Below, piece by piece: positions 5,446 through 30,289 of a stretch of DNA of 34,023 nucleotides. Numbering within the stretch: position 1 is the stretch's first letter; every line of letters starts with the position of its first letter. This stretch comes from a virus: positions 1-34,023 of the IMG/VR virus record IMGVR_UViG_3300027733_000012. One strand, 5' to 3'. A program made the position numbers and the translations under genes. The notes below the pieces were generated by a model. The model was given only the letters and a program-made list of their open reading frames with translations, was not told where the DNA came from and ran no database searches.

Positions 5446-6006
5446 GTCAGCACCCTCTGAAAGTGATACGCCGCGCATGTCTGCAACGGGCACCTGTTGA
5501 TTTTTGATTTGGGGGATGGTCACGAAGCTGACCTCACCGATGGCAAACGGGTAGCTGGGGCTGTCGTCGAGCTCAGTGCCTGCCCATGCCCGGATGTTGG
5601 GCGAGACATAGGGCACCTCACCCGCATCGAACGCTGCTGCCCACTTGGGGCTCGTGATGTCGAGCCCGCCGTAAATCATGCGCGAGCTCGGCTGCTTGAT
5701 GCCATGCTTGGCCGCCTCGGCCTTGGTCAGCACCACGATGCGACGCAGGTAGCCAGCCGCCGTGCCGTCCTTGTTGTGCTCCACCGCAATCGCAGGGGCA
5801 TAGTCCGACAGCCAACGCTCGAGAGACTCGACCGCGTCATCGAACCGGAACTGCAACTTGTCGGCATCTGTCTCGGCTGCGTCAAAGCGCCAGGTAGTGC
5901 CATGCGCGTTGATGCTGCCCTCTGGCAACAGAGACACCCAGCGAAGCCCGGTGTCGTCACCGAGGTTCACCTGCTGAGTCTTGAGCTTGAGACGGGATGC
6001 ACGCAT
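4744..6006 (-). CDS. Mu I-like prohead protease with C-terminal scaffold
   Basis: 420 residues from ATG 6006, chosen over an in-frame GTG six bases upstream because AGAGG is correctly spaced for the ATG. The N-terminal ~185 residues have the Mu protein I pattern: AVEHNKDGTAAGYLRRIVVL (candidate catalytic His region), then VPYVSPNIRAW, then AIGEVSFVTIP; this phage protease family matures the prohead. The second part is acidic (a Glu/Asp/Ala run near residues 225-275), then a coiled coil (LLSEVIKLKRELAVAKR), as in scaffolds. In Mu the scaffold (Z) is made from an internal start in gene I; here an internal ATG with its own ribosome site is present (see next entry). The catalytic triad was not verified. 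Confidence 0.8.
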   Translation of the reverse strand: MRASRLKLKTQQVNLGDDTGLRWVSLLPEGSINAHGTTWRFDAAETDADKLQFRFDDAVESLERWLSDYAPAIAVEHNKDGTAAGYLRRIVVLTKAEAAKHGIKQPSSRMIYGGLDITSPKWAAAFDAGEVPYVSPNIRAWAGTELDDSPSYPFAIGEVSFVTIPQIKNQQVPVADMRGVSLSEGADMAMTKDDCAAYCAEAGLDEAAVAALMAKLFPEMHSEAHAANPDLNEEAEAIEAAAIAELERAKGIEEAVDEVKDEAIEEEPKDDEALLSEVIKLKRELAVAKRTAALAHVRTSLGNRKVSSATETMLADAFVAGKGKFEAMLADFAPASTVKPSAPAPRTIAPVGVGSREANLGEALKPGSKHFANLSDDDQWKLITELASKESITVGLAASWLSFGKAPDAVLEMKSTRGSN

Positions 6007-6122
6007 GCCCACCTCTTTGCACCCTATCTCAAGCCACTTCTACCCCCTTGCACTGCGGTAGTGCTGTGCTAGTGCGACAACCGCTGCGCTACTGCGGCAC
6101 CATCAACACGGGCGGTATTCTT
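6007..6122. promoter_or_regulatory. Divergent intergenic region with operator-like repeats
   Basis: This gap separates the minus-strand protease gene from the plus-strand winged-helix gene. It contains an inverted repeat GCACT-gcggt-AGTGC (6050-6064), a further TAGTGC (6070-6075) and a direct repeat ACTGCGG (6052-6058 and 6091-6097). A winged-helix gene facing its own repeat-rich upstream region is typical of autoregulation. A possible -35-like TTGCAC lies at 6048-6053 without a convincing -10. Promoter positions are not established. Confidence 0.4.
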
Positions 6123-6380
6123 TTGGCTACTCTCACCAGACGACAACGCATGGTCCTCGATGCTCTCCTCATCTGCCATCGAAAGCCGAGCATGCACCCC
6201 TCCCCTCGCTGGCTCGCAAACCACATCGAGCACTGGGGCGAGAAGGCTGTCAGAGCAGACATCGCCAACCTTATCGCTCTTGGACTAATCGAGGATGTCG
6301 AGGTCGGCACCGGCTCGGCTCCGTCAAAGTACAAACTCCACCAGTGCGACTGCACCTACTGCACCTCGAGGCCCTCATGA
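6123..6380 (+). CDS. Small winged-helix DNA-binding protein (LexA N-terminus-like)
   Basis: The frame is open from 5997 (ATG), but homology-like sequence begins at about 6123 (TTG), giving 85 residues; the start is uncertain, and ATG 6150 is another option. TLTRRQRMVLDALL...MHPSPRWLANHIEHW followed by AVRADIANLIALGLIEDVE matches the LexA-type winged helix: LT-RQ-x-VLD, P-S-x-R-x-(L/I)A in the second helix, then a recognition helix and wing leading to a GLIE-type turn. There is no protease domain, so it is not a SOS-cleavable LexA. It ends in a cysteine-rich tail (CDCTYC). It is likely a regulator of the late arm it sits in, or of itself. The cassette lies opposite to all neighbouring late genes. 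Confidence 0.65.
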   Translation: MATLTRRQRMVLDALLICHRKPSMHPSPRWLANHIEHWGEKAVRADIANLIALGLIEDVEVGTGSAPSKYKLHQCDCTYCTSRPS

Positions 6381-6595
6381 CCAAGCCCGCTTTCAAGCCA
6401 TGGAACCTGCCCCTCTCGGCCGAGGCTAAGGCACGCGCCATCAGCCACATCAACGAGCGGCACGAGATGCTCCTGGCACTCGGTCCCGTCGCCTTTGCCG
6501 CCATGGGCAGGCACGACAAGGCACGCTATGCCCACATTCAGCTGCTCAACCATGGCTACGATGCCCAGCTCTACACCGAGCCCGTGCCCGACTAG
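6377..6595 (+). CDS. Small unknown protein coupled to the winged-helix gene
   Basis: 72 residues from ATG 6377, which overlaps the upstream stop as ATGA and has GAGG before it. It begins MTKPAFKPWNLPLSAEAKA and has one amphipathic helix (RAISHINERHEMLLALG) and a Tyr/His-containing C-terminal half. I do not recognise the family. Translational coupling implies joint function with the winged-helix protein, perhaps as a partner or antagonist. Its TAG stop lies in the CTAG at 6592-6595 that also supplies the stop of the convergent portal gene. Confidence 0.6.
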   Translation: MTKPAFKPWNLPLSAEAKARAISHINERHEMLLALGPVAFAAMGRHDKARYAHIQLLNHGYDAQLYTEPVPD

Positions 6596-9459: not shown

Positions 9460-10715
9460 GTCTTGCCTCTGCTTGGTGTTGTCGACGCGCTGCCCATGTA
9501 GGCTCGCCTCGTTTGCGCTGTCACTCCCATACGCTCGGCACCGTACCACGCCAGAGCGTGAGCACACACGGTGTCGTCGTGCACACCGCTCGGCGCGCCA
9601 TACACTACTCGGCCCTGCTTTACATCATACTCGAACGCCTCGAGCTCGGCGCGGTGCGGGCCGTCGAGCACGCTCGTTCTACCTTGTTGCAGCGCCAGTG
9701 CAAGCCCCTCCATCAACCCCTGCTTGCTGGCCGAGCTGAAGATGAACGCCTCGCACCACAGCCGAGCCGATGACAGCTGCTCACCGACGGCGTCGCCAAC
9801 GCCCGTCGCATCGTAGAACAGGCAGGCCTTGTTGCCCGGGCCGACGATGCGTGAGACCTCCGACACCAGCGAGGAGTAGCTCAAGCCGTGCCAGCGGTAC
9901 ATCACCGAGACGTGACGGTTGCTGTCGAGGCCCATCAGCACCGCGTAGTCTCGCTTGCGTGCTATGTCTAAACCCCACACCCGCACTGGGTTGCCTGTCG
10001 GCTGCCCGTTGTTGAGCTCAGCACAGGCCCGCACCGCGTCGATGCCAAACGGATTCTGCCCGTCGTCGGCTGGCTCGCAGTAGTAGAGCTCACGAAACAC
10101 AGCTGCCGGCAGCGACCGCCGCGCCATCTCGAGGTCGCCTGCCGAGAAGAGGCCACCGGCAATCGCATCGTCGGCCGTCAGCCTGTGGTAGGCAAAGCCC
10201 GGCTCGCCGCTCTCGCCCTTGCGTGACCACTGGTAGTGACGGTTGGCCCTGCCTCGCACGTTGCCACACAGCCGCAGCTTGCCGCGTGTCTTGGTGGTGG
10301 TGCTGTACACCGCGTCGACGGCATCGTCCTTCATGCGGCTGGCCTCGTCCAGGACGGCGCTGCTCACTGCCGAGCCATAGAGGTTGTCGGGCTTGTCAGC
10401 AGACCGAAAGCTCCACCGCCTATCACCAGGCGCAATGATGGCCTTGTCAGCGAGCGCCTGCCGGAACCCCACCTGACCACGCAGCAAGGACCATGCGACG
10501 CGGTAGGCCATCATGCTCTGTTCGTAGACCGGCGCCACCCACCAGTGCTCGGCGTCAGGCGGCCCCTCGAGCAGCTGCTTGATTTGCCACACGATGGCCG
10601 AGGTGGTCTTGCCGCTCTTGGTCGTGCTCTCGATGCAGACGATGCGTGACGGGTCGTTGATGGCGTCCCACTGCTTGGCATACAGCGCAGGCAGCGTGAC
10701 CTCGGCAGTCGCCAT
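9453..10715 (-). CDS. terL: Terminase large subunit (ATPase-nuclease)
   Basis: 420 residues; the ATG at 10715 overlaps the TerS stop as TGATG, with GAGG seven bases upstream (an in-frame GTG three bases earlier is less likely). It is the motor that cuts and pumps DNA into the prohead. The Walker A-type loop TTKSGKTT is at residues 31-38, Walker B AVLDE at 120-124 with the catalytic Glu124, and a coupling-like STTTKTRGKL follows. The RNase H-fold nuclease is marked by GLDIARKRDYAV (~residue 245), FYDATGVGDAV (~300) and HDDTVCAHALA (~385), which supply the expected three acidic positions. Length is at the short end for TerL but all motifs are present. Confidence 0.92.
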   Translation of the reverse strand: MATAEVTLPALYAKQWDAINDPSRIVCIESTTKSGKTTSAIVWQIKQLLEGPPDAEHWWVAPVYEQSMMAYRVAWSLLRGQVGFRQALADKAIIAPGDRRWSFRSADKPDNLYGSAVSSAVLDEASRMKDDAVDAVYSTTTKTRGKLRLCGNVRGRANRHYQWSRKGESGEPGFAYHRLTADDAIAGGLFSAGDLEMARRSLPAAVFRELYYCEPADDGQNPFGIDAVRACAELNNGQPTGNPVRVWGLDIARKRDYAVLMGLDSNRHVSVMYRWHGLSYSSLVSEVSRIVGPGNKACLFYDATGVGDAVGEQLSSARLWCEAFIFSSASKQGLMEGLALALQQGRTSVLDGPHRAELEAFEYDVKQGRVVYGAPSGVHDDTVCAHALAWYGAERMGVTAQTRRAYMGSASTTPSRGKTW

Positions 10716-11128
10716 CACTCGGCCTCGTCGACCCGCGTCACGCGAGGTATCGTCACCGTGAACTTGATAGGCTCCCCGCCGCTGGTCAGGTCAAGGGCCG
10801 ACTTGGTCACAGCGTCGAGGCCATTGAGCTTGGCACGCCTGTCCTCGATGCTGAGCACCGTGCTCACTGCCTTGAGGTCACCCTCCTTGGCCTGCGTCCA
10901 CACCGAGCGCAGCAGCTGGTCGAGACGCTCGGCTGCCTCCTTGCGCTCCTCGGTAGCACTCGCCACCGCATGCTCCTGGACCTCCTTGCGGGCCTGCGTC
11001 AGCAGCTCGGTGATGGTGACCCGGCTCAACCCCAGCTTGAGGGCGATGTCGTTGTGCGACCACCCACCTAGCCGCAGCTCCCATGCCTGCCTCAAGAACT
11101 CGGCGCGCTGTTCGTTGCTCAGTGCCAT
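10715..11128 (-). CDS. terS: Terminase small subunit
   Basis: 137 residues from ATG 11128; the frame extends to 11323, but that extension crosses the GTAACA repeats and lacks coding character. N-terminal helix-turn-helix: GGWSHNDIALKLGLSRVTITELL (about residues 25-47), followed by a long helical oligomerisation region (residues 50-95) and a short beta C-terminal tail that in other phages contacts the large subunit. TerS recognises the packaging site; in many phages that site is in or near this gene. Only a weak ribosome site precedes the ATG, and the best promoter would start transcription at or next to it, so the message may be leaderless. Confidence 0.78.
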   Translation of the reverse strand: MALSNEQRAEFLRQAWELRLGGWSHNDIALKLGLSRVTITELLTQARKEVQEHAVASATEERKEAAERLDQLLRSVWTQAKEGDLKAVSTVLSIEDRRAKLNGLDAVTKSALDLTSGGEPIKFTVTIPRVTRVDEAE

Positions 11129-11135
11129 GAAGCCG

Positions 11136-11164
11136 ATTGTGCCACTGGTCGCTCGGCAGGTCAA
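11136..11164 (-). promoter_or_regulatory. Candidate sigma70-type promoter for the late arm
   Basis: Reading the minus strand, TTGACC (11164-11159) and CACAAT (11141-11136) are separated by exactly 17 bases. The -10 lies seven bases before the TerS ATG, so transcription would begin at or beside the start codon. A second, perfect TTGACA lies at 11178-11173 but has no good -10 at the right distance. The GTAACA repeats begin just upstream, so a protein bound there could activate or block this promoter. Confidence 0.4.
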
Positions 11165-11184: not shown

Positions 11185-11467
11185 GGTAACACGGTAACAT
11201 CGACTTTGTTACCGTCCGACAGCCGCAAGCCATTGAACTGCCTAGCGAAATCGGAGCGGTAACATAGTAACACGATTTTTGCACATACCATGTGTAAGTC
11301 GAGGGGGGTCTCCTTGTGCGCACGCCCGTGAGCCCGCGCGCGCGTATAGGTGCTTGTTTTGGATGTTACTCATGTTACTCTATCAAAAAACTACTACTAT
11401 CTATAAACAAAACAGAGAGATAAGCGGTAACATCAGCGGTAACATCGGAGTAACATGCCATGTTACC
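11185..11467. repeat. GTAACA iteron cluster; candidate replication origin / control region
   Basis: Eleven copies of a (G/A)GTAACA core occur here and hardly elsewhere. Forward copies start at 11185, 11193, 11258, 11266, 11426, 11438 and 11449; reverse copies (TGTTAC(C/T)) start at 11207, 11364, 11373 and 11461. The extended consensus is about CGGTAACATC. They fall in four clusters with 8-12 base spacing. Between the third and fourth clusters is the most AT-rich stretch of the genome (11379-11423: A-runs and CTACTACTATCTATAAAC), a plausible unwinding element. The cluster sits between the divergent arms and upstream of the primase-helicase, the classic place for an iteron origin; operators for a regulator are the main alternative. 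Repeats are seen; function is inferred. Confidence 0.7.
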
Positions 11468-11792
11468 GCAAATCGGCTAAGTCGTTGAAACCTCGTTGCG
11501 GGCCTCTGGCGAGGGTCCTCGAGGAGCTCGAAACCGGCTCAAAACAGGGGGGCCTCGCGCGCGGACGCGAGGCTCGAGGCCCTCTCAGCGATGCATCTCG
11601 ACCACCAGCCCAAAAGGCATCGAGGCCCTCTCTCCTGGTGCCACGACAGCGGAGAGAGGACCTCGACTCAGCACTCTTGACAGGAGGTAGTCAGGAGGGC
11701 ATATTGGTCAGCGAGCCGCGACAACGGCTCATCAACCTGATGGCCTCGGTATACCCGAGGTGCCTAGTTTTTGCAAGCCCCCACGAGGTATC
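11468..11792 (+). promoter_or_regulatory. Structured untranslated leader before the primase gene
   Basis: About 325 bases without a convincing gene. It contains four perfect inverted repeats: GCCTCGCG/CGCGAGGC with a 6-base loop (11552-11573); CCTCTCTCC/GGAGAGAGG with a 15-base loop (11627-11659); GAGCCG/CGGCTC with a 6-base loop (11713-11730); and CCTCGG/CCGAGG with a 5-base loop (11744-11760). CGAGGCCCTCTC occurs twice (11574-11585 and 11621-11632). The last hairpin is followed seven bases later by TTTTT, like a weak attenuator, and the primase ribosome site comes after it. This may be an RNA leader controlling primase expression, or single-strand initiation sites belonging to the origin. 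Confidence 0.5.
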
Positions 11793-14591
11793 ATGCAAGA
11801 TGTATTGAGCGCGTTCGCACAAGCAGCGGAGGCCGAGCGCGGTCTCCTATTCCCTGACGGCGTCATAGCCAATGGCGAGCACCACAGGGTGCCGACGGTG
11901 TCCAAGCCGGACAAGAAGAACGGCTGGTATGTGGTGCACCTCAACGACGGGCCGGGGCAGAGTGGTGTGGTGGTGGCAGTGTTCAATGACCTTGCAGCTG
12001 GGCAGCCGGATGTGAAGTGGTCGAGCACGGCGAACAAGAGGCCAGAGGTGAACCTCGAGGAGGCGACAGCGACGATGAAGAAGAAGATAGCAGCTGCTGC
12101 CAAGGTGAAGGTGGACAAGGCCGAGGCAGCGGTGAACGAGGTGACGGCCGAGATAGCGCGGTCAAAGCCAGTGCAAGAGGCATTCGGTTACCTCGAGCAC
12201 AAGGGCGTAAGGTCGGTGCCAGGACTGTACCGCAGTGGGCAGACGCTGGTGGTGCCGCTGAAGGACGATAAGCAGCGTGTGGTGAACATGCAGCGCATCT
12301 GGCAGGACAGCGACGGTGTGTGGCAGAAGCGGTACCAGAAGAACGCAACGCGGGTGGGGACCTACTTTGCCATCAAGGCGAGCCCCGACACGGTAGCGAT
12401 TTGCGAGGGCGTGGCGACCGGCATCAGTGTCCATGAGGCGACAGGGTGGACAGTGCTTGCAGCTGGGGACACGACGCAGCTGGTGGCGGTGGCTAAGATG
12501 GCTCGTCGGATGATGCCAGGCGCTCGCATCATCCTTTGTGCCGACGATGACCGCATGACGGAGGGCAACCCAGGAGTGACCAAGGCACGAGAGGCGGCCG
12601 AGGCGGTTCGTGGCGAGGTGCGGGTGCCGGTGTTTGACGACCTTGATAGCCGAGGGACCGACTACAACGACCTGCATCAAGAGCAGGGGTTGTCGGAGGT
12701 GAAGTTGCAGCTGGAGGCCAAGGTCGAGCCGGTGGACGATGTGCCGCTGCCAGAGGAGGCACCCTACTACGAGGAGAAGCTCGGCAAGGAGAAGCCAGCA
12801 GGTGAGGAGGCATGGGTGCCGGATGGGTACGAGTTCACTAACACCGGTGCAGTGATACGGTTGCCGCCTGCCGACAGCGAGAAGCCCCCGACGCTCGTGA
12901 GCTCACAGCCATTGTGGGTAGCAGGGGTGCGGGTGGACGCGGTCGATGGCACAAGGTCGATGCTGGTGAAGTGGTGCACACCTCGAGCAGGTGAGTTCGG
13001 CCGGTTCGATAGGCCGCACCAGGTCATCGTGGACCGAGGCACGCTGCTCAATGCCCGCAGCATCGTGGCTCTGGCAAGCGCAGGGTTCCCGGTAGACTCG
13101 ACATGTGCGAGCGAGGTGGTGCTGTACCTGCGCAAGAGTGAGTCGCAGTACCTCGCCACGACGGTGCGAGCGGCGCAAGAGATGGTGGCAAGCGTGACAG
13201 GCTGGCATGGGGCGCTCGATTGGACTGCCTCGAGCTTCTTGATAGGCGAGAAGCAGGCGGGTTTGGGTTGCCCGACGTTCGAGAACCTCAACCCTGAGCT
13301 GGCGCGGCATGTGGGCGCGTTCACGGTGAGTGGCGAGGCATCGAAGCAGCTGGTGGTGCTGCGAGACATCGTTGACCAGCACCCCGACATGGCGACGGTG
13401 GTTGCGGTAGCTTTGGCGTCACCTTTGATGCGGGTAGTGTCGGCACCGGTGTTTGTCCTCGACATCGCCTGCGAGAGTAGCCGAGGCAAGACCAAGGCGC
13501 TGCTGGTGGCTGCGTCGGTGTATGGCTCGCCACAGACGATGCGGTCATGGGACACAACGAAGTACGCGCTCGAGATAGTGGCGAATGCGCAGCGGGGGTT
13601 GCCGTTGTTGCTCGATGAGACGCAGCGAGCGAGCAAGCCAGAGATGGTGCAGCCGATGGTCTACGACCTGTGCAACGTCGAGGGCAAGATGCGAGGCAAG
13701 GCCGACGGTGGAGTGCGGGCTATCTCTCGGTACGAGTCGCTGGTCATCAGCACAGGTGAGCAGAGCATAGCAGCCTTTGGCGACGCAGGCGGTGCTAGGG
13801 CGCGAATCCTGACCATCCAAGGCAGCCCTTGGAACGTGGGTATGCCCAAGCCTACGCCAGAGGCCATCAGGGCCTTGACGGTGTACCAGAGCCAGAGCCT
13901 CGACACCTTGTCGGACCACTACGGGCACGCGGGCCGGATGTTTGCCGAGAAGGTGGCGGTGCTGACAGAGGACGAGAGGCGTGAGCTGCGAGCTCGTTAT
14001 CGTGAGCTGGTGCATGCTCGGTCGGTGTCGGTGGAGGAGCTCAGCCCCAGTCACCCGATTGGGTCTCGGCTGTCGACGTATGCTGCGCTGATTGACCTTG
14101 CCGGCGAGCTGGCCGAGCGTTGGCTCGAGATGAAGCCGGCGGCATGGCTGTCGAGGGAGCGATGGTCAGCGATGCTCGGTTGCGGCCGTCCTGCCGACGT
14201 GGCAACGCAGGCGATGGAGCGGCTGGTGGCATGGGGTTGGTCAAGGTCAGCGCAGCTGCACGGCCATGGTGATGCGACCAAGACGTTGGGGCGCGATGCC
14301 ATCGGGACCTTCTCGGTTGATGGGGTGACAGGCAGGCCCAAGTTGCAGTTTGTGATGGCAACGGCCAACGACATGCTGCGCTCGGCAGGGTACCAGCCGG
14401 GAGCAGTAGCAGCGACATGGGCCTCACGCGGTTGGCTCAATGGCGACAAGGGGTCAAATACCTCTAAAGTCGTTAGTGTGGCAGGGTTCAAGGTGCGCAT
14501 GTACGACTTGAGCACGGTAGCACACTCGCTGCATGTGTGGCCGAGCGAGGATGCGGCAGAGAACATCTTTGCCGGTGATGTTCCGTTCTGA
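11793..14591 (+). CDS. Primase-helicase: TOPRIM primase plus DUF927-type ATPase
   Basis: 932 residues from ATG 11793 (CGAGGT close upstream; an in-frame GTG at 11760 lies in a hairpin). Residues ~120-190 resemble the part preceding TOPRIM in phage/plasmid primases (FGYLEHKGVRSVPGLYRSG...LVVPL). TOPRIM spans ~200-300: AICEG with Glu205, then CADDD (Asp251-253) and GTDYNDLH. The second half is DUF927-like: residues 370-550, Walker A ESSRGKTK (561-568), Walker B LPLLLDE (603-609), sensor-like VISTGE (651-656) and an arginine-bearing GARARIL. It would unwind and prime the origin region next to it, with host polymerase extending. The protein ends ...FAGDVPF, like the SSB C-terminal tip that recruits host replication proteins. 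Confidence 0.82.
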   Translation: MQDVLSAFAQAAEAERGLLFPDGVIANGEHHRVPTVSKPDKKNGWYVVHLNDGPGQSGVVVAVFNDLAAGQPDVKWSSTANKRPEVNLEEATATMKKKIAAAAKVKVDKAEAAVNEVTAEIARSKPVQEAFGYLEHKGVRSVPGLYRSGQTLVVPLKDDKQRVVNMQRIWQDSDGVWQKRYQKNATRVGTYFAIKASPDTVAICEGVATGISVHEATGWTVLAAGDTTQLVAVAKMARRMMPGARIILCADDDRMTEGNPGVTKAREAAEAVRGEVRVPVFDDLDSRGTDYNDLHQEQGLSEVKLQLEAKVEPVDDVPLPEEAPYYEEKLGKEKPAGEEAWVPDGYEFTNTGAVIRLPPADSEKPPTLVSSQPLWVAGVRVDAVDGTRSMLVKWCTPRAGEFGRFDRPHQVIVDRGTLLNARSIVALASAGFPVDSTCASEVVLYLRKSESQYLATTVRAAQEMVASVTGWHGALDWTASSFLIGEKQAGLGCPTFENLNPELARHVGAFTVSGEASKQLVVLRDIVDQHPDMATVVAVALASPLMRVVSAPVFVLDIACESSRGKTKALLVAASVYGSPQTMRSWDTTKYALEIVANAQRGLPLLLDETQRASKPEMVQPMVYDLCNVEGKMRGKADGGVRAISRYESLVISTGEQSIAAFGDAGGARARILTIQGSPWNVGMPKPTPEAIRALTVYQSQSLDTLSDHYGHAGRMFAEKVAVLTEDERRELRARYRELVHARSVSVEELSPSHPIGSRLSTYAALIDLAGELAERWLEMKPAAWLSRERWSAMLGCGRPADVATQAMERLVAWGWSRSAQLHGHGDATKTLGRDAIGTFSVDGVTGRPKLQFVMATANDMLRSAGYQPGAVAATWASRGWLNGDKGSNTSKVVSVAGFKVRMYDLSTVAHSLHVWPSEDAAENIFAGDVPF

Positions 14592-17252: not shown

Positions 17253-18098
17253 ATGAGCATGCAGATTGCCAAGAACCAACACCCCGTCGAGGGCTGGCTG
17301 TCTAACCCAGACAACTTTGCCAAGGTCGCCAACGCGCTGCCGACGCACCTCAATGCCGAGCGCATGCGCCGGCTCTACCTCACCGTGTTCAACAACAGCC
17401 CGGCACTCAAGGCGTGCAGCCCTGCCTCCGTCATCGGCTGCCTGCTCAAGTCTGCCCAGCTCGGCCTCGAGCCGGATGGTGGCAAGCTCTACCTTATCCC
17501 GCGTGGTGGCGAGTGCACGGTGCAGATTGGCTTTCAGGGCTACATCGAGCTCGCCCGCCGCTCTGGTCAGATTGCCGCCATCGAGGCCAACATCGTCTAC
17601 GAGACAGACGACTTCTCGATTGCCTACCATCTCGACAGCAAGTTTGAGCATCGGCCCAACCTGCGTCGTGCAGCCGACGACAAGGTGCTCGGCGTGTATT
17701 GCTATGCCAAGCTGACCTCTGGCGAGCGGCTGTTCACATGGATGAGCCACGCCGATGTCGAGCATGTGCGTCGCACGAGTTCTGGCAACAGCAGCACCTG
17801 GACCAAGCACTGGGGCGAGATGGCGAAAAAGACGGTGCTCAAGCGTGCCGCCAAGATGCTGCCCAGCTCGATTGAGATGGCTGCTGCTATCGAGACCGAG
17901 GCCGAGCACGAGGGCTACCAGCAGGAGGCGCCTGTGGTGTCTCATCAGGTGGTGACGACTCCGACGGCAGTAGGTGGTGCCCGGCTGCCTGCTCCTCCGC
18001 CGCCCATCGAGGTGACGGCCGAGGAGGTCGAGGTCACTGAGCTGGCTGCAACCGAGGCTGCTACCGAGCCCCTCAACCTCGACGAGGTGCCGTTTTGA
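17253..18098 (+). CDS. recT: RecT-family single-strand annealing protein
   Basis: 281 residues from ATG 17253 (purine-rich GAGAGAGAG upstream). The RecT core is clear: PASVIGCLLKSAQLGLEPDGGKLYLIPRGGE (about residues 58-90), then VQIGFQGYIELARRSGQI, and later KTVLKRAAKMLP. It coats and anneals single strands produced by the upstream exonuclease, giving a two-component Red/RecET-like recombination system. After about residue 215 the protein becomes a Pro/Glu/Val/Ala-rich disordered tail ending NLDEVPF, resembling the acidic DDDIPF tip of bacterial SSB. That tail could recruit host SSB-interacting proteins. The following gene starts within its stop codon (TTGA). Confidence 0.88.
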   Translation: MSMQIAKNQHPVEGWLSNPDNFAKVANALPTHLNAERMRRLYLTVFNNSPALKACSPASVIGCLLKSAQLGLEPDGGKLYLIPRGGECTVQIGFQGYIELARRSGQIAAIEANIVYETDDFSIAYHLDSKFEHRPNLRRAADDKVLGVYCYAKLTSGERLFTWMSHADVEHVRRTSSGNSSTWTKHWGEMAKKTVLKRAAKMLPSSIEMAAAIETEAEHEGYQQEAPVVSHQVVTTPTAVGGARLPAPPPPIEVTAEEVEVTELAATEAATEPLNLDEVPF

Positions 18099-27823: not shown

Positions 27824-30289
27824 TTATCGCACCCACTTTCTTGCGTTGTTGGTCGAGCCGTCCACCTGCGCAGCGTCGTCAGCTTGAAAGACATCATAAA
27901 TTGCGTTGATGTTGATTGAGCCAAAGTAGGATGCATCGGCAAGCACAATGATGTCACCAGGCACCGCATAGTACTCAAAGCCTGGCAGGTTGAGGTAGTT
28001 GCCAGAGACTCCTTTGAGCTGGCCCTGGTACTTGAAGGTACCGTACTGGTCGAGCAGCTGCACCTCGTACCATGAGCCATTTCGTTGGTACGTCAGCTCG
28101 AACGCATTTGCATCACAAGTGGGTTGGCCCGGCTGCGCATCATCAGGTCCAGCCGTAAAAACGTTCTCGCCCACCTGTATGAGGTCACCACCCGGCACAT
28201 CCTCCACAAGGGCCGAGCAGGACCAAACCGGTATCTTGTTATCCGGCGACACATAGCCCGGCAAGATGATGGTGTAGGCCGTTGTCGGTGTCTGCCACGA
28301 GCGCGCTGCCTTGAGCACATAGCCAGTCAAAGCCTGCACACCCAGCTCGCCCTCGCTGTTGACGAGGTAGTCGGAGGTCAGCGCCACCTCTTGGCCTACT
28401 ATGAGCTTAAGTTGTGAGTCACGCAGCGATAGGTCGACGCGAGCTGCGCTCTGGCTGTACCGCATGATGAGGCCAAAGGCGTTAGCCATCATTTGAGTGT
28501 TGCCCCACGACGGGTCATCAGGGTTAGCACCTTGACCAGAGAACCAGTGACCGATGGTCATCTCCTTGCCAAGGCCGCTCGATGCTAGGTCGATGTTGAG
28601 GTAGGGCACATCGTAGGTTACCACTTCAGGGCTAACCTGAGTGCAGTACTTAGCTGTGACGCGCATGAGGCAGAGGCCGCGCTCAAATGTCAGCTTGATG
28701 CTGGGGTCCGATAAGGCCGCGTCACTTACCAGGGCTGGCACCGCGCGAACGCCGGACCACGAGCCAAAGCAGAACTTGCCTTGGTCGTAGACCATGTAGG
28801 CGCCAAGGCGCTTGAGGATGCCGTCGAGCACATCAGCGACCGTCTTGGCCGACTCGTGTTCATAAGGTAGTACAACACGAGGAATGTTCCCCTGCGTAAG
28901 AATCAACTCAGTGTCAATCGTAACCACATCTGGCCTGACTAGATTTTTGGTCAGAGCGTTCAAGCTCGGCATGTCAATGATGTCACTAATGGCATCAATT
29001 GGGAATGGCAGCCATGCCGACTCATTGGGCGCGCGAGCCCCGAGGTAAAGAGTGAGGTCGGCTGAGTAAGAGCCCAGCAGCAGGTCTACAATGAGAGAGG
29101 GAAAGTCTACGGCTTCTAGGCAGTTCTCGCCCCGCATCGTGGCAGACTGTGGCGTCATTGTAGTAGAGTATAAAGGGGCCGCACGATTAAGGCCATTGAA
29201 CGTTGCATCAACCGAAATTATTGGTCCTTTGCTATTTACGTCGTAGTAACCTTTAACAAACGACATAGGATAAGACGTGGTTGTTGCAACATTGGTTCCC
29301 CAATCAAGCGTGATGTCATTATTGACAATAATGACATCTGGTCTTTCAGAGTCAAATGCCAGCGGAACACCAATGCCCCCGTTGTCTTTTTCACGCAGCT
29401 GCCACAGCTTTACTGCCGTTTCACCTGTTTTAGGCAGAATCGGATTGTAACGAGGCCCGTAGACACCGGCCTCCCATGGTGTGGTGGTATCCGGTCGCAG
29501 AACCACGCTGTTGGTTTCCGCGTTGTACACACTACCGGCATCCCGAATGGCGGAAACAGTGACTGGACCCCATGCCGGGATGAACGGGGCCTGCTTGAGG
29601 TAGGCCATCATGCTCGAGCAATCGACCTTGATGAGGTTCTGCTGCCCTGCCGAGGTGTCGTTGCTCACCTTGTTGACATAGCCTCGAAAGATGAGCTTCT
29701 CATCAGAGAGATTTGTCTCTGACGTTGTGATGACAACCGGCAGCTGCTCGCAGCCGCCAAGAGGGTTGCCGCCGTTGAGGTCGTAGACGATGGAGCCAAG
29801 AGGCTCGTTGCCGACACCCTGAGCCGTCATGCCAATTGGCACATTGGCGCAGCCCCACACACGAACACCTGTCAGCACAGGGCTGTTCGAGACTATCTTG
29901 AACACCGTGTTCTGCACGCGGTAGTAGGCGCTCACCGTGAACAGAGCAGGGTTAGGCACCGGTATCTCAACCGTGCCAGCAGCAGGCAACACATAGCCAA
30001 TAAGACGCACTGGCTGGTGCAAGGCTGCGTCATACACCTCACGCTTGCCTCGGCTCAACAACAAGCGACGGGTAGCTGGCGTCGACAGCACCGTGAAGCT
30101 CGTGGTGCTATCCGAACCCAGCGAGCCAAAAACCTGTATCTCGCTGCTGAGCTGGTCAGACAGAGACACCACCGTGCCAGGAACCAACGTTGAGAACCCC
30201 GCAATCTCCCGAGTTGTGAACACGGCAGGGTTTACTGAACTCGTGTCACCTAGCCCAAGTATCTTGATGGCTACAACGCGCTTGCTCAT
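27824..30289 (-). CDS. Tail hub / baseplate protein (tail tip J-like)
   Basis: 821 residues, ATG 30289 (TAATG overlap). The largest tail-tip protein, with beta-rich domains and KTVADVLDGILKRLGAYMVY near two-thirds, typical of hub proteins that assemble under the tube and may open the cell envelope. The segment coding for residues ~245-470 (about 28870-29560) is visibly more AT-rich than the rest (A/T third positions, TTTAC, TTATTG), suggesting a region acquired from another phage lineage. The frame is intact. Confidence 0.65.
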   Translation of the reverse strand: MSKRVVAIKILGLGDTSSVNPAVFTTREIAGFSTLVPGTVVSLSDQLSSEIQVFGSLGSDSTTSFTVLSTPATRRLLLSRGKREVYDAALHQPVRLIGYVLPAAGTVEIPVPNPALFTVSAYYRVQNTVFKIVSNSPVLTGVRVWGCANVPIGMTAQGVGNEPLGSIVYDLNGGNPLGGCEQLPVVITTSETNLSDEKLIFRGYVNKVSNDTSAGQQNLIKVDCSSMMAYLKQAPFIPAWGPVTVSAIRDAGSVYNAETNSVVLRPDTTTPWEAGVYGPRYNPILPKTGETAVKLWQLREKDNGGIGVPLAFDSERPDVIIVNNDITLDWGTNVATTTSYPMSFVKGYYDVNSKGPIISVDATFNGLNRAAPLYSTTMTPQSATMRGENCLEAVDFPSLIVDLLLGSYSADLTLYLGARAPNESAWLPFPIDAISDIIDMPSLNALTKNLVRPDVVTIDTELILTQGNIPRVVLPYEHESAKTVADVLDGILKRLGAYMVYDQGKFCFGSWSGVRAVPALVSDAALSDPSIKLTFERGLCLMRVTAKYCTQVSPEVVTYDVPYLNIDLASSGLGKEMTIGHWFSGQGANPDDPSWGNTQMMANAFGLIMRYSQSAARVDLSLRDSQLKLIVGQEVALTSDYLVNSEGELGVQALTGYVLKAARSWQTPTTAYTIILPGYVSPDNKIPVWSCSALVEDVPGGDLIQVGENVFTAGPDDAQPGQPTCDANAFELTYQRNGSWYEVQLLDQYGTFKYQGQLKGVSGNYLNLPGFEYYAVPGDIIVLADASYFGSININAIYDVFQADDAAQVDGSTNNARKWVR

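Follow-up and report, generated by a model that had tools for sequence, protein, structure and literature searches.

Eleven GTAACA repeats between the diverging early and late arms

The DNA analyzed here is a stretch of 34,023 nucleotides (positions 1 to 34,023 of IMG/VR record IMGVR_UViG_3300027733_000012), referred to below as the window. Its ends share a 127-bp terminal direct repeat, which makes a complete, circularized assembly of 33,896 bp probable. Two gene arms diverge within it. To the left, on the minus strand, terS (ATG at 11128) is followed by the large terminase and late genes; homologues of terS in other phages are likewise found immediately before the large terminase gene. The rightward arm, on the plus strand, opens with a gene for a primase-helicase (ATG at 11793) whose start is preceded by a GAGGT ribosome-binding site, and the early genes beyond it include a YqaJ/RecE-like exonuclease, RecT, and a Holliday-junction resolvase. 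A reading made earlier from the sequence only had placed a repeat array between these diverging arms and beside the replication gene, and that location was borne out. On one side, 58 bp lie between the start codon of terS and the first iteron; on the other, 326 bp separate the end of the array from the primase-helicase start (Table 1).

Table 1. Features of the terS/primase-helicase junction, in window coordinates
Feature	Position	Strand	Description
terS, small terminase subunit	10715–11128	-	137 aa, helix-turn-helix; first late-arm gene; rival candidate binder
Promoter-like site toward terS	11136–11164	-	TTGACC-17-CACAAT with TG; consensus match only; outside array
Iterons	11186+, 11194+, 11207-, 11259+, 11267+, 11364-, 11373-, 11427+, 11439+, 11450+, 11461-		Exact GTAACA
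Cluster a (++-)	11186–11212		11186+ and 11194+ 8 bp apart, then 11207-; exact GTAACA; order same in relatives
Cluster b (++)	11259–11272	+	Tandem pair 11259+, 11267+, 8 bp apart; exact GTAACA; kept in relatives
b–c spacer, 86 bp	11276–11361		Contains ATACCATGTGTAA and the sole TTWTNCACA of the window
Cluster c (--)	11364–11378	-	Inverted tandem pair 11364-, 11373-, 9 bp apart; exact GTAACA; kept in relatives
AT-rich tract	11381–11422		76% A+T; within the genome's least stable DNA; putative unwinding element
Cluster d (+++-)	11427–11466		11427+, 11439+, 11450+, 11461-; exact GTAACA; kept in relatives
Promoter-like site toward primase-helicase	11677–11705	+	TTGACA-17-CATATT; 211 bp past last iteron; consensus match only
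Terminator-like hairpin	11743–11805		GCCTCGGTATACCCGAGGT then GCCTAGTTTT
Primase-helicase	11793–14591	+	932 aa; Toprim, DUF927, and C-terminal domain; ends DVPF

The array spans 281 bp (11186–11466) and holds eleven exact copies of GTAACA, seven on the plus strand and four on the minus strand. A recount returned the eleven sites in both orientations and the four clusters originally described; start-to-start spacing within clusters was 8–13 bp, close to the 8–12 claimed but with a higher upper end. The whole window has 15 copies, against an expected 5.3 ± 2.1, and only four of them fall in the remaining 33.7 kb, so that counting along the genome, as had been proposed, showed clustering rather than an equal density elsewhere. 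The Poisson probability of the hexamer cluster was ~10^-18 relative to base composition, and that of the 7-mer cluster was 10^-19, compared with 10^-6 for the best of 20 shuffles. The base preceding the hexamer was G at seven of the eleven sites (GGTAACA) and A at the other four (AGTAACA).

The iterons had also been described as surrounding the most AT-rich stretch. The least stable DNA does lie inside the array, but in the tract between the third and fourth clusters and not mid-array. The least stable 30-bp and 50-bp stretches of the genome begin at 11376 and 11374, respectively, with a 30-bp minimum of -31.5 against a genome mean of -46.4 ± 2.9, and the 86 bp separating clusters b and c are just 42% A+T. 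Within that spacer, ATACCATGTGTAA (11285–11297) was kept in all relatives seen despite variable surroundings. The same spacer holds the single TTWTNCACA of the window (11277–11285; 0.76 expected), which we treated as a chance match to a DnaA box because it is not kept in relatives; a DnaA-dependent origin, for which several conserved boxes would be expected, was rejected.

Neither promoter-like site overlaps any repeat, the nearest iteron being 22 bp upstream of the one facing terS. Two related contigs, L005 and L018, have TTGACA at the place corresponding to the site that faces the primase-helicase. The terminator-like hairpin between that site and the start codon is conserved-looking in the same two contigs, and its left arm could pair with CGAGG at the ribosome-binding site; it is a possible attenuator. 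Elsewhere, two small plus-strand reading frames (5997–6595) lie within the minus-strand late arm, and as relatives keep them at 87–88% and 59–61%, they are probably real genes running against the local direction. Cumulative GC skew, a check suggested for an origin, reached its minimum near the array, at 11635, and its maximum at 29803, about opposite on the 33.9-kb circle and away from the point of gene convergence (~23.75 kb). This fits a bidirectional origin at the array, the signal being weak and in part linked to gene orientation.

We found six further viral contigs of the same lineage. All eleven sites were present in identical order and orientation in the five that cover the array; the sixth (L013, with a TerS 99% identical) stops inside the array and keeps the five sites it covers. 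The primase-helicases of these relatives were 92% identical to that of the window in L003, L004, and L009/L006, and 78–80% identical in L005 and L018. Conservation of the repeats, which had been put forward as a check, was strong: when the window was aligned with L003, L004, and L005, 66 of 66 hexamer columns were invariant, as opposed to 122 of the 222 remaining columns of that stretch (Fisher p 5e-15, four sequences). The base following GTAACA is mostly T in the clade of the window and G at most sites in L005 and L018, a concerted change that suggests that one protein reads all sites of the array. Beyond this lineage, querying phage records at the DNA level with the array region gave no match, and when viral contigs were scanned for the double-iteron pattern, the hits outside the relatives were three unrelated contigs (L007, L010, and L011) with chance-like matches. 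An 18-member alignment contained no stretch conserved enough to scan with.

The DUF927 helicase and arrays beside its relatives

Domain searches identified DUF927 (4e-30) and Toprim in the primase-helicase, and profile comparison to solved structures matched SaPIbov1 Rep (8TCH, 2e-44) and SCCmec Cch (5DGK, 4e-29). The DUF927 half was modeled from 76 sequences with a mean pLDDT of 76.5; an earlier whole-protein prediction from four sequences (mean pLDDT 33.8) was discarded. The model aligned over nearly the full length with SaPIbov1 Rep (Z 30.5) and Cch (Z 30.3), followed by MCM helicases (Z 14), while D5-type helicases were weakly similar. SaPI Rep recognizes, through its C-terminal domain, a multi-iteron origin directly downstream of its gene; DUF927-containing Cch is related to SaPIbov1 Rep, and binding of Cch2, via its C-terminal domain, to direct repeats downstream of the gene that encodes it has been demonstrated (PMC7581432). 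The sequence-only reading had seen no obvious initiator gene, a view that did not survive, as the neighboring gene encodes a protein related to SaPIbov1 Rep, an initiator helicase that reportedly recognizes its iterons by way of its C-terminal domain.

Both the primase-helicase (AGDVPF, 14577–14591) and RecT (LDEVPF, 18080–18098) carry SSB-like C-terminal tails of acidic residues followed by PF. The helicase of L005 ends in DPDVPF, and in phage FP_Epona and several Firmicutes phages, too, the helicase has acidic residues and PF at or close to its C terminus. Such tails might recruit host SSB-binding proteins.

We then turned to 17 distant DUF927 elements found in records of phages and plasmids. 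Most had a strong array, with a different short motif, within ~100 bp after the helicase stop codon. Motifs following the DUF927 gene were GGGGAAC in phiAH14b, GTAACAG in a Vibrio harveyi element (L030), GTTACAC in a Photobacterium element (L029), GGTAACC in phage THSA-485A, TGAACCA in a Klebsiella satellite-like plasmid, and GGTGAAA in phage FP_Epona. A Geobacillus plasmid (L026, TGTCACAA) and a Legionella plasmid (L031, TGGGACA) also had arrays after the gene and have no annotated terminase, which indicates that the repeats travel with DUF927 and not with TerS.

For a larger survey, we drew 160 loci from bacterial genomes and from viral contigs; 146 of these loci were usable. A cluster with a probability below 1e-6 was found within 600 bp downstream in 64% of the 146 DUF927 loci, compared with 5.5% of 1058 control segments taken from these loci and 1.4% of the 140 segments upstream. 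At a threshold of 1e-10, the corresponding values were 51% downstream, 0.9% for controls, and 0.7% upstream, and after removal of redundancy 49 of 74 loci had a downstream cluster. The SaPIbov1-type rep locus of phage PT1028 served as a positive control and yielded nine copies of AGTTCCC in 285 bp directly after rep. Loci from Nitrosospira and Gallionellaceae carried CGGTAAC, with the same core as the phage of the window. In a partial Mantel test, motif distance correlated with helicase distance (r 0.43); helicase-core and C-terminal distances correlate at 0.94 and are not separable in this comparison. About one-third of the 146 loci were without an array by the 7-mer cluster scan, which found none in the 600 bp downstream in viral contigs L164, L174, L175, L179, L181, L182, L186, L188, L190, and L199; their origin may be elsewhere, may use another signal, or may lie in a masked stretch. 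Within the Legionella and betaproteobacterial set (L040–L119), many Legionella genomes have at least one DUF927 element, and several copies have few or no recognizable TGGGACA sites downstream; these may be decayed integrated elements.

To compare layouts, site order, orientation, and spacing were matched with a 5 bp tolerance and set against 100 shuffles. Eight to nine of the eleven window sites matched the Vibrio, Photobacterium, Faecalibacterium-phage, and Streptomyces-plasmid arrays, better than 100 of 100 shuffles. Order and spacing are therefore shared beyond chance in at least four elements while the motif drifts. Matches to the THSA and Geobacillus arrays did not exceed shuffles, and many other DUF927 arrays had other layouts. 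The V. harveyi and Photobacterium plasmid-prophages matched eight and nine sites, respectively, and have their AT core in the same interval; their arrays, however, are directly downstream of a helicase gene with an unfused primase, whereas the window array is upstream of a gene in which the primase is fused.

Similarity to SaPIbov1 extends from the nearly full-length helicase fold to the short iterons in both orientations, in ~300 bp beside the helicase gene and with an AT-rich stretch. By eye, the two arrays also share a succession of cluster, tandem pair, ~100 bp gap, inverted site, and further sites, although numerically this match (6 of 11 sites, with 23 of 100 shuffles as good) was not significant. 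They differ in motif (GGTAACA in the window, AGTTCCC in SaPIbov1), in the AT tract (between clusters three and four versus two and three), in the upstream position of the window array, and in the Toprim primase fused to the window helicase. SCCmec Cch has the same DUF927 helicase as the window, whereas Cch2 belongs to the D5/SaPI5 Rep-like helicase family and has a putative origin of three AAGTG iterons. In satellite phage P4, the alpha primase-helicase binds short GGTGAACA-type iterons in both orientations at ori1 and crr. Alpha is a D5-type helicase, unlike the DUF927 protein of the window.

A candidate replication origin and its alternatives

We consider it likely, with a probability of roughly 0.8, that the array is the replication origin of this phage and is bound by the adjacent Toprim-DUF927 primase-helicase. 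An iteron-type origin with the primase-helicase itself as the binder had been among the possibilities first raised, and the comparative evidence (DUF927 association, fold, and conservation) supports it well. What is computed directly is the array, its conservation, the helicase that partners it, and the comparable arrays that accompany other DUF927 genes. Multiple short iterons in both orientations occur within ~300 bp, AT-rich and least stable DNA lies among them, and the helicase is a DUF927 MCM-like AAA+ protein with the SaPIbov1 Rep/Cch fold. The usual, though not strictly defining, position directly downstream of the helicase gene is not found here, and counts against the origin reading given how rare upstream arrays were in the survey. 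As the array lies 326 bp upstream, it is best read as a variant of the SaPIbov1/Cch-type iteron origin. What is unusual is this upstream placement, in a divergent junction beside terS, and the fusion of primase to helicase.

By analogy with SaPIbov1 Rep and Cch, the primase-helicase would bind the GTAACA iterons, probably via its C-terminal domain, and would assemble as one or two hexameric MCM-like rings, the hexamer number being taken from those proteins. Oligomers around or beside the AT-rich tract would melt 11381–11422, and the helicase would load itself, with no separate loader, and unwind the DNA. The fused Toprim domain would then prime, a host polymerase would extend, and firing from the array would be bidirectional.

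The gene on the other side of the array suggests a different binder. Packaging sites frequently lie within or next to terS, TerS here has a helix-turn-helix, and the repeats start 58 bp from its start codon, so the repeats could be binding sites for the small terminase subunit at a pac or cos site. We regard this as very improbable, since analogous arrays accompany DUF927 genes in plasmids without an annotated terminase. Six actinophages have a homologous TerS; in the three with readable upstream DNA, nothing better than 1e-6 was seen there, and the strongest repeat signal among the six was a within-gene 7-mer (1e-7.8). Equally little credence can be given to a multi-site operator through which a phage regulator would control the divergent early and late arms. 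The array does lie between these arms, and a candidate regulator, the product of the 5997–6380 frame, is 87–88% conserved in both relatives with loci that span it; that protein, however, has no Pfam or PHROGs match, both promoter-like sites are outside the array, and arrays accompany DUF927 in elements whose surroundings are unrelated. The master operator of the sequence-only reading thus gained no positive support, nor did its idea of one protein governing replication and late transcription, again with both promoter-like sites outside the array. As an addition to the origin reading rather than an alternative, occupancy of a primase-helicase-bound origin could also adjust the terS or primase promoters. 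Iteron-binding initiators often autoregulate, and an iteron lies 22 bp from the terS promoter-like site; the primase promoter-like site is >200 bp from the array. We consider such a dual role rather unlikely; coupling of the array to late transcription is no more than possible.

Returning to the array as an origin, a broader proposal can be offered tentatively, at less than even odds: the self-loading DUF927 helicases found in phages, satellites, plasmids, and integrated elements across several phyla may as a rule be accompanied by an iteron origin of their own next to the gene, whose motif drifts freely and whose layout of cluster, pair, gap, inverted pair, and cluster persists in part of the family. 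In this phage, the origin would have moved to the early/late junction, where initiator binding could influence terS transcription. An uncultured phage lineage thereby gains a specific, testable origin and initiator. The search rule of repeats just beside a DUF927 gene gives candidate origins in about two-thirds of the elements examined, across Proteobacteria, Firmicutes, and Actinobacteria, and origin recognition and opening by self-loading helicases become testable in many natural pairs of motif and helicase.
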